From contig JADLFU010000043.1 of assembly GCA_020849655.1 (NCBI GenBank), forward strand, positions 1-42,236: a DNA stretch of 42,236 nt, written 5' to 3'. A program made the position numbers and the translations under genes. This document shows positions 37,663 to 42,236 of the stretch, one piece after another. Numbering within the stretch: position 1 is the stretch's first letter; the number at the start of each line of letters is the position of its first letter. The notes beneath the pieces were generated by a model. That model was not told the DNA's origin. It made no database searches and saw nothing but the letters and a program-made list of their open reading frames with translations. The stretch is from Polyangiaceae bacterium (lineage in GTDB: Bacteria > Myxococcota_A > Polyangia > Polyangiales > Polyangiaceae).

Positions 37663-38862
37663 TCACCGGGTCGACGGCAGGGCGAGGGGGAGGTCGACGA
37701 CGGGACGAGGCCGCGCGGGAGGGTCGGGGCGCCGCAGCGCGAGGGCCCCGGCGAGGGCGATCCCGACCAACCCGAGGCCGACGACAGCGGCGACGACGGC
37801 GGCGCGCACGGAGCGATCGCGCGCGGCGAGCGCGCGGTCGAGGCGGTCCGCGTCCGTGGCGGTCCCTCCTCCGGCGGCGGCGGGGGCGCCCACGACGTTC
37901 TGAGCGTCGCAGTAGGCGCAGGTCGCCACCACCTCGGAGACCGCGCTGCGAGGGAGCGGCGCCCCGCAGGAGCGGCAAGCAGGCCCGTGACCATCGGGCC
38001 TGGCGGCGAACCCGAGGCACACGACCGACAGCGCGCGGCGGTTCGCGATGACCACGCGCAGCGCGAGCGCTCCGGCGATGAAGAGGGCGAGGGAGACCAT
38101 CACTGTCGGCCCGAAGCCGGTCGAGCCCGCGGCGATCGGGAGCCAGCCAAGACCCAGCACGGACAGCGCTGCCAACAGCCCGTTCACGCGCTGCGACGAG
38201 GGCTGGTGGAAGAGCGCGGCGACGGCTCGCAGCGTGGCGGCGCGCGAGGCCTCCCGGCCGCGAGCGGCGGCGAACCTCGCGCGGACTGCGGGTGGGATGG
38301 GAACATCGGCGCCGCAGGCGTCGCACGACACCTCCGCCGCGTCCGCGATGGCGGCAGGCGCTCCGCACGAGGGACACGTCACCAGCGACGGCACCGGCGG
38401 CGCGGGCGCCGACCGCGCCGACCCGCTCGCAGCGAGGCGCCGCTGCGACCTCAGCACGTCCCCGAGCGCGTCGAGCGAGCCCCGCTCGATCTCGTTGTTC
38501 GCGTGGGCGAGATCGAGCTTCACGCCGTCGCCGAGATCGAGGTGCAGTCGGCCTCGTCGAACGGAGACCTCGGCGATCATCGGCCACCGGACGCGCACCC
38601 CGTGGTGCGGCCCGCCGTCGACCTGCATCTCTTCAGGGAGCAGCCGCACATCGCTGGCGCGCTCGCTCCCCAGCATGGCCCGGAGAATCACTGCGATGAT
38701 TGGCAAGAAATAGACGTAGAAGAACGAGAAGACGAGCGTCTCGTCGCCCGCGCGTGTCCACTCACCAAAGAGCCCCAGGCCGATCACGAGCGTGATCGTG
38801 CCCAGCACCACGCGCGAGAGCGCGGTGGCGCCAGTCTGGAGCGGTAGCTTGGTCAGATCCAT
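37663..38862 (-). CDS. Zinc-ribbon membrane protein of unknown function
   Basis: ATG at 38862 (MDLTKLPLQTGATALSRVVL) is taken as the start; 46 further upstream residues in frame are Arg/Ala-rich. The 399-residue protein has two N-terminal membrane helices (about residues 15-65), a soluble segment with a beta-strand pattern (EEMQVDGGPHHGVRVRWPMI), and a first zinc ribbon (CPSCGAPAAIADAAEVSCDA then CGADV). Two further membrane helices come at about residues 260-310. A second ribbon (CRSCGAPLPRSAVSEVVATC then AYC) and a last membrane helix near the C terminus follow. The paired Cys-x-x-Cys motifs imply two structural zinc sites. I do not recognise the family. It heads the seven-gene minus-strand run. 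Confidence 0.7.
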   Translation of the reverse strand: MDLTKLPLQTGATALSRVVLGTITLVIGLGLFGEWTRAGDETLVFSFFYVYFLPIIAVILRAMLGSERASDVRLLPEEMQVDGGPHHGVRVRWPMIAEVSVRRGRLHLDLGDGVKLDLAHANNEIERGSLDALGDVLRSQRRLAASGSARSAPAPPVPSLVTCPSCGAPAAIADAAEVSCDACGADVPIPPAVRARFAAARGREASRAATLRAVAALFHQPSSQRVNGLLAALSVLGLGWLPIAAGSTGFGPTVMVSLALFIAGALALRVVIANRRALSVVCLGFAARPDGHGPACRSCGAPLPRSAVSEVVATCAYCDAQNVVGAPAAAGGGTATDADRLDRALAARDRSVRAAVVAAVVGLGLVGIALAGALALRRPDPPARPRPVVDLPLALPSTR

Positions 38863-39295
38863 CGCTTCAGCCTGCCCCGTGGACGGTCCGACTTGCAACA
38901 GGGAGCCAGCGGCGCTCGGCGAGCGCTCCTCCCCGGCGCGCCTGAGCGCACGCTGGGCCGCCGCCTGCGAGCGCCTCGCGTCTCTCTTGCGCGCCGCCAC
39001 ACGCGCACTCTCCAGCTCCGGCGTCGTCTGCGCGCTACGCGCTTTTCACGATCCTCACCACCTCCGACACGTCTCCCGCGCGATCGGCGGCGGCCTGCCC
39101 GCGTGCGGCGCATCCGCCAGCGCAGCCGACACGCTCGCCGCTGCCACCGCCAGCGCGCGCCTGCGTACAGCCCGTGCCAGGGTCGATGCCGATGCGCGAT
39201 CGCTTCACCCTCGTGTCCGCGCTCACGTCGCTGGGGCGCGGGTGCGTGAAGTTCGTGGGCGTGGCGTGTTGACGGGGGAGCGACGAAGGGGTAGG
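38863..39295. other. 433-base divergent intergenic region
   Basis: No convincing gene is seen. A 63-residue minus-strand frame (39035-39226) has four Cys but no start signal or family resemblance. Plus-strand frames are Arg-rich noise. The right end carries the candidate promoter of the metalloprotease gene. On the minus strand TTGCAA (near 38893) could be a -35 element for the zinc-ribbon gene, but no good -10 follows. Confidence 0.4.
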
Positions 39296-39297
39296 GT
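39269..39297 (+). promoter_or_regulatory. Candidate promoter of the metalloprotease gene
   Basis: TTGACG (39269-39274, five of six matches) and TAGGGT (39292-39297) are 17 bases apart. Transcription would start near 39304, leaving the GTG at 39296 outside the message and the ATG at 39306 at or next to its 5' end. If a more distant promoter is used instead, AGGGTG (39294-39299) could act as Shine-Dalgarno for that ATG. Confidence 0.4.
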
Positions 39298-41743
39298 GCC
39301 TGGTGATGCAAAAGCAAGCCTCGGCTCGGCTCGGCTCGGCTCGGCTGTTTGCGCACTGCTGGTGACGGGCGTGGCCCTGGCGGTTCTCTGCGCCGGGACG
39401 AGCTGCAGTCCTCCGCCTCTCGGGAACATCCCGGGCACTGGCTCGAAGAGCGAAGCGATGAGCCGCGTGGGGATCGAGCGCGTCGTGCCGCTACGCTTCG
39501 TGCTGGTGCAGGAGTCGGCCGTCTCGGCAGACAAGGTCACCTGGCAGAACCTCATCGCCAGCGTGCAGATGGCCAACGAGACCTTTCGTAACGCGGGGAT
39601 CCAGTTCCGGATCTCGTCTGCGACTCGCCAGGTCATGCCCGCGTTCGGTCACGACATCGCCACGCCTGCGGTGGTCACTTGGAGTTCCGTGGAGGCAGAG
39701 TTGAACGCTGCCTTCCCTGCGTGGTGGGACCCAGCTGGGCTCCCGGCTGCCAGCGAGGCACAGCCAAAGAGCGTGTGGCTCTACTACGCCTCCACGCGCT
39801 TCAGCGACCCCTCCGAACTCGTGATCTACGTGGTGGGAGCGAACGGATGCTGCCACTCCTCCGCGGTGCCGTACCACGCGCGCGGTGCGATCATGATCGG
39901 CGGCGGGATGGGCACGCACTCCAAGCTCGGTCATGAGCTGGGGCACACGTTCGGGCTGATGCACTCCATGGGGGGGGGGATGGCCCGACGCGCTCCAGTG
40001 CGACCCCTCCGCAAGCGTCGACTGCAACATCTACGGCGCCCCCGGCACCTTCACGGGGGTGAACACGCTCGCGGACGACTGGGACCAGGTGTATCTGCCT
40101 GGTTCCTCGGCGGCGTCGCCCCACCAGGTCTTCACGAGCCGCGCTGCGGCCACGGCAGCAGGGCTCGCCAATCTGCGGTACATCCACACAGGCAGCAACT
40201 GCGCGACCAGCTGGATGGGAGACGGATCCCTCTCCTGCACGCTGCTCGGCAACCCGGCGACTTACAGCGAGGTGTGGAGCTCGACGAACCCGGCGGCGTT
40301 GCCCAAGCTTCGGGGCTTTGCGTTTCCGTCCGCGGGCGGCAAGCTCGGCGGCAACGGCCACTCCAACCTCGAACCGCCCACGCTGGGCTGGCCGGTGAGC
40401 CTCGCGGATGGCCAGGTCGACCAGATCCGCAAAACACTGCGGTACGATCAGAAGATCCAGGCGGGCGCGGAGCCGCGTCTGGCGGCGTTGGGCAACGGGG
40501 GGGGCGGCCCTTCCTCGGGGGGATGCAGCGAAAGCAGCCGTTCGAGAAGCTCGACCTAGACGGCGACGGAAAGCGTGATCTGGCGGTCTGGTACCCGCCT
40601 CCCACCACCACAGGCACGGGAACTTTTCGGGTCTTTCTCAGCGGCACGGCCTACGCCGCCGAGAGCTCCGTCGCGTTCGGGACGCTGGGCGACATCCCCA
40701 TCCCCGCGGACTACAATGGCGATGGCGTCACCGACTACGCTGTCTTCCGGCCACCTGCGGGCGTGGGCAACGACGGCAGCGCCGCGTCGTGGGTGCGGTG
40801 CGTCTCGTCCACCGGCCCCGTTGCGCACAACTGTGCGGTACCGTTGACGACCGCCTGGGGAAATCGTGGTGATGTCCCATTCCCGGGAGTCAACTTCGAT
40901 GGTCTCGCCTCCACGGGCGAGGTGGCCGTGTATCGGCCTGGTACGGGTCAATTCTCCGCGTACAACCTCGCGACGGGTGCGTCCAGGATCGTCTCCGCCG
41001 GGAGCGGGATGCCGTTCGTCGGCCTGTACGACGACGATGAGCAGACGGACGTCGGTGTCTTCTATCCGCAGTTTGCGCTCTTTGCTCTCCAGCTCTCGAC
41101 AGCGGGGTACGCCAGTTACACGGCCGTCGATTTCTGTGATTTCTGGAACCCCAGCTACTACTGCAAGTACGCGCCGAAGATGGCAGGAACGAGCGCGGAT
41201 CGCGGCGGCGCCATCCCGCTGACAGGGAGGGTCCAGATGCGCAGCATCGGCGGTACCGCCAAGGCGCGAAACGCGCTGGGTCTGTGGGACCCGAGCGACG
41301 GCACGTGGAACATCCGCTGGGCGCCCATCACCTCCACGATGACCAGCGCGTACACCTGGGGCGACCTCGGCGACATCGTCGTCGCTGATGCTGTGGGGCG
41401 AAGAGAGCAGGACGGCCTGGCGCAAGTTGGCAAGCGGAGCGAGGTGGTCATCTTCCGGTCGGAGTCGTCCGCTCCCGGCCCCGGGGGCCCCGGGTACTTC
41501 TGGCGATGCCCCTTCACGAGCGGTGGGCTGTACTGCGACGGCGGTACCGAGCAGTCCATCGCCGTCCCGCAGGGCCAGAAGCGGACCGAGGCGTTCGCGC
41601 TGCAGGACATGGTGGGCGACGGCAAGCCAGAGCTGTGTACCCTGCACGCCGACCCGATGACTGTGCGGTGCGTGACCTCGGACAGCGGCACCACGACGGC
41701 CATCACGGTGACGTTTTCGCAGAGCGGAGGAGTGTTCCTATGA
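39296..41743 (+). CDS. Secreted metzincin-type metalloprotease with FG-GAP-like repeats; frame displaced at poly-G tracts
   Basis: From GTG 39296 the frame gives a signal sequence (VCALLVTGVALAVLCAGTSC, weak lipobox). A protease domain follows, with KLGHELGHTFGLMHSMGG: His213, Glu214, His217 and His223 form the metzincin HExxHxxGxxH site. After a G10 tract (39970-39979) the same frame becomes Arg-rich nonsense, while the +1 frame continues sensibly (WPDALQCDPSASVDCNIYGA, then ADDWDQVYLPG and YIHTGSNCATSWMGDGSLSC). Near a G8 tract (40497-40504) sense returns to the first frame: LDLDGDGKRDLAVWYP, PADYNGDGVTDYAVFRP and further FG-GAP/VCBS-type calcium-binding repeats to the end. G9 at both tracts would give one continuous protein of about 815 residues. 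Its stop overlaps the next start (ATGA). Confidence 0.75.
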   Translation: MPGDAKASLGSARLGSAVCALLVTGVALAVLCAGTSCSPPPLGNIPGTGSKSEAMSRVGIERVVPLRFVLVQESAVSADKVTWQNLIASVQMANETFRNAGIQFRISSATRQVMPAFGHDIATPAVVTWSSVEAELNAAFPAWWDPAGLPAASEAQPKSVWLYYASTRFSDPSELVIYVVGANGCCHSSAVPYHARGAIMIGGGMGTHSKLGHELGHTFGLMHSMGGGMARRAPVRPLRKRRLQHLRRPRHLHGGEHARGRLGPGVSAWFLGGVAPPGLHEPRCGHGSRARQSAVHPHRQQLRDQLDGRRIPLLHAARQPGDLQRGVELDEPGGVAQASGLCVSVRGRQARRQRPLQPRTAHAGLAGEPRGWPGRPDPQNTAVRSEDPGGRGAASGGVGQRGGRPFLGGMQRKQPFEKLDLDGDGKRDLAVWYPPPTTTGTGTFRVFLSGTAYAAESSVAFGTLGDIPIPADYNGDGVTDYAVFRPPAGVGNDGSAASWVRCVSSTGPVAHNCAVPLTTAWGNRGDVPFPGVNFDGLASTGEVAVYRPGTGQFSAYNLATGASRIVSAGSGMPFVGLYDDDEQTDVGVFYPQFALFALQLSTAGYASYTAVDFCDFWNPSYYCKYAPKMAGTSADRGGAIPLTGRVQMRSIGGTAKARNALGLWDPSDGTWNIRWAPITSTMTSAYTWGDLGDIVVADAVGRREQDGLAQVGKRSEVVIFRSESSAPGPGGPGYFWRCPFTSGGLYCDGGTEQSIAVPQGQKRTEAFALQDMVGDGKPELCTLHADPMTVRCVTSDSGTTTAITVTFSQSGGVFL
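39320..39346 (+). repeat. Pentanucleotide repeat (CTCGG)5 at the start of the metalloprotease gene
   Basis: Five perfect CTCGG copies plus CT lie between the possible starts (GTG 39296, ATG 39306) and the hydrophobic core of the signal peptide. The unit is not a multiple of three, so gain or loss of a copy changes which start is in frame with the protease. Confidence 0.9.
39970..39979 (+). repeat. G10 homopolymer in the metalloprotease gene
   Basis: Ten consecutive G follow the metzincin zinc motif (the first G belongs to the ATG codon for Met225). Removing one G puts the downstream coding sequence (WPDALQCDPSASVDC) in frame with the upstream protease domain. Confidence 0.9.
40497..40504 (+). 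repeat. G8 homopolymer in the metalloprotease gene (G6 at 40517-40522)
   Basis: Eight consecutive G, with a further G6 tract at 40517-40522, lie where the coding frame must return to the first frame before a TAG at 40557-40559. Adding one G in either tract restores the reading frame (through GNGGGRPFLGG or GGGGPSSGG, respectively). Confidence 0.88.
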
Positions 41744-42236
41744 AGAACCTGGGTCGCGGAGGGCGGTCGTGGGTCGTGGCGCTCGCGGGCGTCGCCGGCT
41801 GTGGGCAGCCGAAGGCGCAGCCGGATCCGAGCGTCGTCGTCCCGGGCGGCGGTGCGGGGACGACCGCGGGCGGATCGTCGGGTGGTGGCACGGCTGCAGG
41901 CGCAGCGACCGCAGGGGGTTCGGCTGGTTCGGTCGCTGGAGGCGCCAGCGCAGGCACGGGCGGCCGCGCGGGGTTCGGTGGCGGCGGCGCCGCAGGGAGC
42001 GCTGGAGCCGGCGGCGACCCTGCCGGGAAGGGCGGTGGCGGCAGCGCAGGTTCATCGGGTGCCGGAGAGGGCGGCGCGGCCGGCAAGACGACGACTTGCC
42101 CGAAGGGACCCGGCCCCGCGATGGTGCTCATCGACGTGCCGGGCGCGGCGGCGTACTGCATCGACAGCACGGAGGTGACGCAGGCAGAGTACGCGGCGTT
42201 CCTGGCCAACCAACCCGACGTCGCGAAGCAGTCGAG
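41740..42236 (+). CDS. FGE/SUMF1-like lipoprotein with Gly-rich linker (3' truncated)
   Basis: ATG at 41740 overlaps the protease stop (ATGA) and has GGAGGAG (41726-41732) seven bases upstream. A short signal peptide ends AGVAGC, after which a Gly/Ala/Ser linker of about 90 residues acts as a spacer. The visible end, PAMVLIDVPGAAAYCIDSTE followed by VTQAEYAAFLANQ, is the opening of a formylglycine-generating-enzyme/SUMF1-like domain (family of SUMF1, EgtB-type and PvdO-like proteins). The catalytic Cys residues lie beyond the right edge, so activity is unknown; many myxobacterial homologues are exported and of unknown function. Coupling to the metalloprotease suggests the two surface proteins are made together. 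Confidence 0.85.
   Translation, partial: MKNLGRGGRSWVVALAGVAGCGQPKAQPDPSVVVPGGGAGTTAGGSSGGGTAAGAATAGGSAGSVAGGASAGTGGRAGFGGGGAAGSAGAGGDPAGKGGGGSAGSSGAGEGGAAGKTTTCPKGPGPAMVLIDVPGAAAYCIDSTEVTQAEYAAFLANQPDVAKQS

Follow-up and report, generated by a model that had tools for sequence, protein, structure and literature searches.

Start-proximal repeats as candidate frame switches in a dispersed family of predicted lipoprotein metzincins from Polyangiaceae

Near the end of contig C43 of a Polyangiaceae genome (G000; 6.56 Mb in 307 contigs), a protease gene contains two runs of guanine at which the reading frame appears to be displaced and then restored. The locus raises the question of whether these runs are a switch, an accident or an error of assembly, and whether a switch, if there is one, lies elsewhere in the gene. 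The window analysed is the whole stretch of 42,236 nucleotides from this contig, and all of its features described here are on the forward strand. The first run, G10, is located at 39970–39979 and the second, G8, at 40497–40504, with a G6 run at 40517–40522 downstream of it, all three where a first-pass annotation had placed them. Read literally, the ORF at 38792–41743 is open throughout and encodes 983 amino acids. The long open literal frame is unremarkable, since 7.5% of codon shuffles also yield one of such length.

The genome carries a second, intact copy of the gene on contig C299, which is 84% identical to the window copy over 2,988 aligned columns and is open for 834 codons from its ATG. 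The C299 protein aligns with the window in three pieces (39308–39985, 39942–40532 and 40406–41740) with two frame changes between them, in the frames that had been proposed from the window sequence alone. At the first tract C299 has 9 bases (GGGGGGAGG) versus 10 in the window, a displacement of +1, and at the second site, near G8, C299 has one base more than the window, which corresponds to a displacement of −1. Comparison with C299 also bears out the suggestion that tracts of G9 at both sites would join the whole protein. The return to the first frame had been assigned to either G8 or G6, and of these G8 fits best and is where the first frame most likely resumes. When the G8 site is restored, the window reads LGNGGGRPFLGGMQR, matching LGYSGGRPLLGGMQR in C299, and RP is common in the family; G6 is ruled out as the second shift site because the G8-restored frame keeps the RP..LGG match to C299.

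The segment between the two tracts (39981–40496) encodes, in the shifted frame, the rest of the catalytic domain including the Met-turn region, with 83% amino acid identity to C299. A model of codon usage, for which the remainder of the window served as training set, passes from frame +1 to +2 and back to +1, switching at both tracts, and finds all four flanks of G10 and G8 strongly coding. Substitutions relative to C299 in 39981–40499 are distributed 16/12/46 over the three codon positions of the shifted frame, and dN/dS for the middle segment is 0.156 in the shifted frame versus 2.4 in the literal frame, in which C299 carries a stop codon. The profile built from the wider family finds the same three pieces in the window, with the middle match at 39954–40478. 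Because substitution pattern, dN/dS, codon usage and family profile agree, the three-frame protein is, on this comparative evidence, the inherited one and the 175 literal residues are not. The first-pass annotation had called these residues nonsense and had named an alignment of homologues as the test that could refute it; both C299 and the family profile favour the shifted frame over the Arg-rich one. The case is also a warning that annotation done automatically will take wrong frames for correct ones in such genes.

What the two runs themselves represent is a different matter. Neither site is a homopolymer in C299 (GGGGGGAGG; TCGGGGGGC), and no comparable tract just after the zinc motif is seen in the sequence shown for other family members, so that the earlier suggestion of G runs toggling the region behind the zinc site is left unsupported. 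In favour of an evolved internal switch, the genome contains only six G/C runs of at least 10 inside contigs, and one of them is here. Nevertheless, in the 84% copy the run is broken or reduced in length, no counterpart is seen at this place in other members, the literal frame is not conserved and is closed by a stop in C299, and the more likely position for a switch is near the start, where the family has a tract; an evolved switch at G10 and G8 is accordingly rated very unlikely. Slippage can occur at runs of 8–10 identical bases, and as the two displacements fall on G runs of this length, transcriptional or ribosomal slippage might correct the frame in part of the products. The tracts are, however, not conserved in C299, and such correction is considered extremely improbable.

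Because neither run is a homopolymer in C299, G10 and G8 are read as incidental rather than as an evolved switch: they would be either real one-base slippages at chance G runs in a silent copy or assembly errors, with real slippage and error about evenly balanced. That both internal tracts are truly G9, with G10 and G8 existing only in the assembly, is given somewhat less than an even chance. It would account for a literal frame without evolutionary support and for a protein that is joined by G9 at both sites, and one-base errors are frequent at long G runs. In addition, the family is multicopy, short-read assembly can mix copies, and many copies are located at contig ends, several being cut by them. 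On the other hand, the codon-usage model finds the frame unchanged across other G/C runs of 8–9 with coding sequence on both sides, so that there is no sign of general miscalling at such a length; error keeps a fair probability, since a run of ten exceeds that length and the gene has several copies. Contig C171 opens with a run of 42 C (positions 1–42), which is probably a poly-G read artefact and suggests a short-read assembly. Such a run is typical of two-colour short reads; as their consensus tends to be correct for 8–10 G, it counts against error. If real, the displacements would be too recent to have marked the substitution pattern of the window copy, and would be secondary events and no conserved switch.

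The protein that emerges from the restored frame is predicted to be a secreted, surface-held protease. In the protease frame, the sequence reads as a hydrophobic, lipoprotein-type signal-peptide core at 39347–39406 (VCALLVTGVALAVLCAGTSC), and the paralogues have similar hydrophobic stretches that end in a lipobox-like Cys. The zinc motif HELGHTFGLMH, of the metzincin form HExxHxxGxxH, is encoded at 39932–39964, and the H, E, G, H, G and H columns are invariant in the family alignment. Most members have a Met-turn of the form N-x-M-S-Y; the Met is absent from C299 (NGHSLLE) and from the shifted frame of the window (NGHSNLE). Among the Pfam M12B and M43 profiles, the window protein and C299 score below every peptidase cut-off, while the G014 member is above the Reprolysin_5 cut-off. 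A search of NCBIfam with the protease gave no match, and similarity to solved structures is weak and confined to the surroundings of the zinc motif (best E 0.002). After the second shift, the first frame encodes an FG-GAP-like region that extends to the end of the gene (40541–41743; PF13517, 28.4 bits, above cut-off), with a dN/dS of 0.093 between window and C299 over 40541–41047. The protease stop codon overlaps (ATGA) the start of a lipoprotein gene with an FGE-sulfatase domain at 41740–42236, which is cut by the contig end. The C299 copy of this downstream gene matches PF03781 with 43.3 bits, and a similar FGE-sulfatase-type lipoprotein neighbour also follows the protease copies on C299 and C215. 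The GC content is 74% in positions 1–38000 of the window and 67% in the protease gene (39300–41743), and the C299 copy is likewise at 67%.

A more plausible site of switching is located at the 5' end of the gene. The ATG at 39306–39308, preceded by a GTG at 39303–39305, aligns with the start codon of C299, and between this ATG and the signal-peptide core lies a simple sequence repeat of five CTCGG units followed by CT (39320–39346, the units themselves occupying 39320–39344), which is proposed to be a phase-variation tract. It is the only perfect pentanucleotide array in the 42-kb window. C299 has 17 CTCGG units at the same place versus 5 in the window, and arrays of at least five CTCGG units occur at only these two places in the 6.56 Mb. 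In the window, reading from the ATG at 39306 does not lead into the protease frame but to a stop after 19 codons (MQKQASARLGSARLFAHCW*); in C299 the ATG is in frame. An in-frame GTG at 39296–39298, where C299 has GTT, is a possible alternative start in the window, and because it could serve as such the assignment of the window copy to the OFF state is provisional. Values of dN/dS of 0.09–0.40 between the copies on C43 and C299 reveal purifying selection between the two. (CTCGG)5 occupies the position at which most members of the repeat-bearing groups carry a frame-shifting repeat, and it appears to be a better switch candidate in this gene than G10 and G8.

The explanation that fits best, and which is judged probable from the comparison of sequences, is that a family of secreted lipoprotein metzincins is present in at least ten dispersed copies, the window gene among them, with G10 and G8 as secondary events. 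Each copy would carry near its start a simple sequence repeat with a unit length indivisible by three, and slipped-strand changes in repeat number would move the start codon into the frame of the signal peptide and protease or out of it. Each cell would then express a changing subset of the family, and in the window copy (CTCGG)5 would place the conserved ATG out of frame, that is, OFF. The tracts with their positions and frames, the intact frames behind them and the purifying selection between the two copies are observed; we infer that tract length changes in living cells, that expression follows it and that the products act as proteases.

Members of the protease family are present in 17 of the 108 genomes searched from the bacterial family; most copies in the genus of the window and in some neighbouring genera have a start-proximal tract, and these tracts are diverse. 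In the window genome, at least five GACGA units in tandem occur at 11 places, seven of which are the 5' ends of paralogues (C6 with 15 units, C79 with 10, C145 with 7, C174 with 7, C193 with 13, C261 with 12 and C271 with 5) and four belong to a second secreted family; the reversed pattern, used as a control, gave 0 matches. On C79 and C193 the repeat lies between the ATG and the signal core, and on C215 a C14 homopolymer occupies the same position. The seven GACGA copies are at different genomic places, as their upstream homology is mostly limited to the last 60–170 nt. Elsewhere, in three members of G034 (a, b and c) the predicted lipid-attachment Cys is closely followed by G12, C13 and G14, respectively, two members of G025 have C12, G001, of the same genus as the window genome, has G8 inside the signal peptide, and G055 has (GCTCG)5. 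No tract was found in more distant members (G014, G017, G020, G039, G140 and others). A (GACGA)n array in G026 does not lie within an obvious secreted gene and was not counted as support. The units CTCGG, GACGA and TCGTC contain no stop in any of the three frames and encode Arg in each, which would suit the N-terminal region of a signal peptide at any unit count. In two truncated members, on C248 (L085) and on contig C1 of G055 (L170), C-terminal sequence directly follows the N-terminal part. In a homologue on contig C55 of G017 (L158/L169), the frame is broken in mid-gene at a place other than a homopolymer. The tree of the catalytic half has little resolution for the most part, and tract type scatters over it with 9 changes against a minimum of 4. 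This scatter fits repeated turnover of tracts without proving it, and the tree does not settle the order of gains.

Among the 17 members with a readable predicted start, five are in frame (C299, C79, C193, G055a and G055b) and 12 are out of frame (C43, C145, C174, C271, C215, C248, G001, G025a, G025c and G034a–c), a proportion close to the one third that would be expected if unit number drifts. Unit numbers among the pentanucleotide copies range from 5 to 17. Chance placement was estimated from at most 11 tracts per class in 6.56 Mb and ten 5' regions of 150 bp, giving about 0.001–0.003 expected per class versus 1, 2 and 7 observed, figures in which duplicated copies of one repeat are non-independent; for G034, at most 22 G12 hits give an expectation of at most 0.0017 versus 3 found. 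Because duplication makes copies non-independent, more weight falls on the presence of no fewer than three unrelated repeat types (CTCGG, GACGA and homopolymer) at one and the same position in distant members.

The same counts could also be read as decay, the start-proximal repeats being neutral and the out-of-frame copies pseudogenes on their way out. The truncated copies on C248 and G055:C1 and the mid-gene break in G017 are what decay would produce, and the window copy has two further frame breaks, G10 and G8, owing to which the coding region behind its tract is not intact as assembled. However, six out-of-frame members (C215, G001, G025a and G034a–c) keep open frames of 719–811 codons that are homologous over their full length, and one and the same place carries repeats unrelated in sequence in members with an identity of only about 30–37%. 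Long open frames persist after loss of function in a GC-rich genome, and recent decay of OFF copies keeps some residual probability, but decay as the general explanation is considered unlikely.

The layout of the second secreted family likewise speaks against decay and for switching by start-proximal repeats. Here (TCGTC)n stands directly after the ATG or a few codons later, at four loci in the window genome (C95, L132; C113, L133; C139, L134; C226, L137) and two in G001 (C76, L144; C83, L145). With 5–23 units, one of the six starts is in frame (C83 of G001) and five are out of frame; the copies in the sister species have 23 and 8 TCGTC units. The product of C95 is about 820 amino acids long, with a weak thrombospondin type 3 hit. 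In other genera (CTCGG)n also heads other predicted secreted proteins (G019:C132, L146; G025:C332, L147; G025:C417, L150), and in at least the first two of these it puts the nearest ATG out of frame.

Taken together, it seems fairly likely that some Polyangiaceae carry an opa-like repertoire of secreted proteins, made up of dispersed families of predicted lipoprotein proteases together with the second secreted family, whose starts would be switched by slippage repeats of unrelated sequence, gained at one and the same position. If true, this would give Myxococcota their first described case of repeat-driven phase variation, as far as the open-access literature shows; no report of it in myxobacteria was found there. 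It would also imply that the strategy is not tied to host immunity, since the organism is a large-genome, presumably free-living relative of predatory myxobacteria, in which switching may protect against phages or predators, or may play a part in social interactions or in those with prey.

Phase variation itself is known from the same phylum, in the yellow and tan forms of Myxococcus xanthus, where it concerns pigment and swarming (PMC3986340). The text of that paper, when searched, mentions neither slippage nor repeats, and its subject, unlike the present one, is not a repeat-headed multigene family. The proteins share HExxHxxGxxH and, in most members, N-x-M-S-Y with metzincins such as the M12B reprolysins and M43 pappalysins, but the window protein and C299 differ from these in the missing Met-turn Met, in scores below the peptidase cut-offs and in their FG-GAP-like C-terminal half. 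In gonococcal pilC1 and pilC2, whether translation is on or off depends on a poly-G tract in the part encoding the signal peptide (PMC13190605), comparable with the G8–G14 and C9–C14 tracts of G001, G034, G025 and C215, although protein and function are unrelated and several sequence-unrelated repeat types occur here within one family. The differences from neisserial opa are similar in kind. The product is a predicted lipoprotein metzincin with HExxHxxGxxH and an FG-GAP-like region, and no Opa outer membrane protein; the units are CTCGG, GACGA and homopolymers rather than CTCTT; the repeat stands before or after the hydrophobic core; and the organism belongs to the Polyangiaceae, in which switching is predicted from sequence. 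As in opa, the genes form a dispersed multigene family of secreted surface proteins with a 5' pentanucleotide repeat in the signal-sequence region, and the number of units decides for each copy whether it is in frame. The opa genes, too, have frameshifts beyond the coding repeat, some possibly due to sequencing error (PMC13183285), an ambiguity shared by G10 and G8 of the window. In layout and logic, without homology of the proteins, the Polyangiaceae family resembles opa in its pentanucleotide repeats and pilC in its poly-G tracts.
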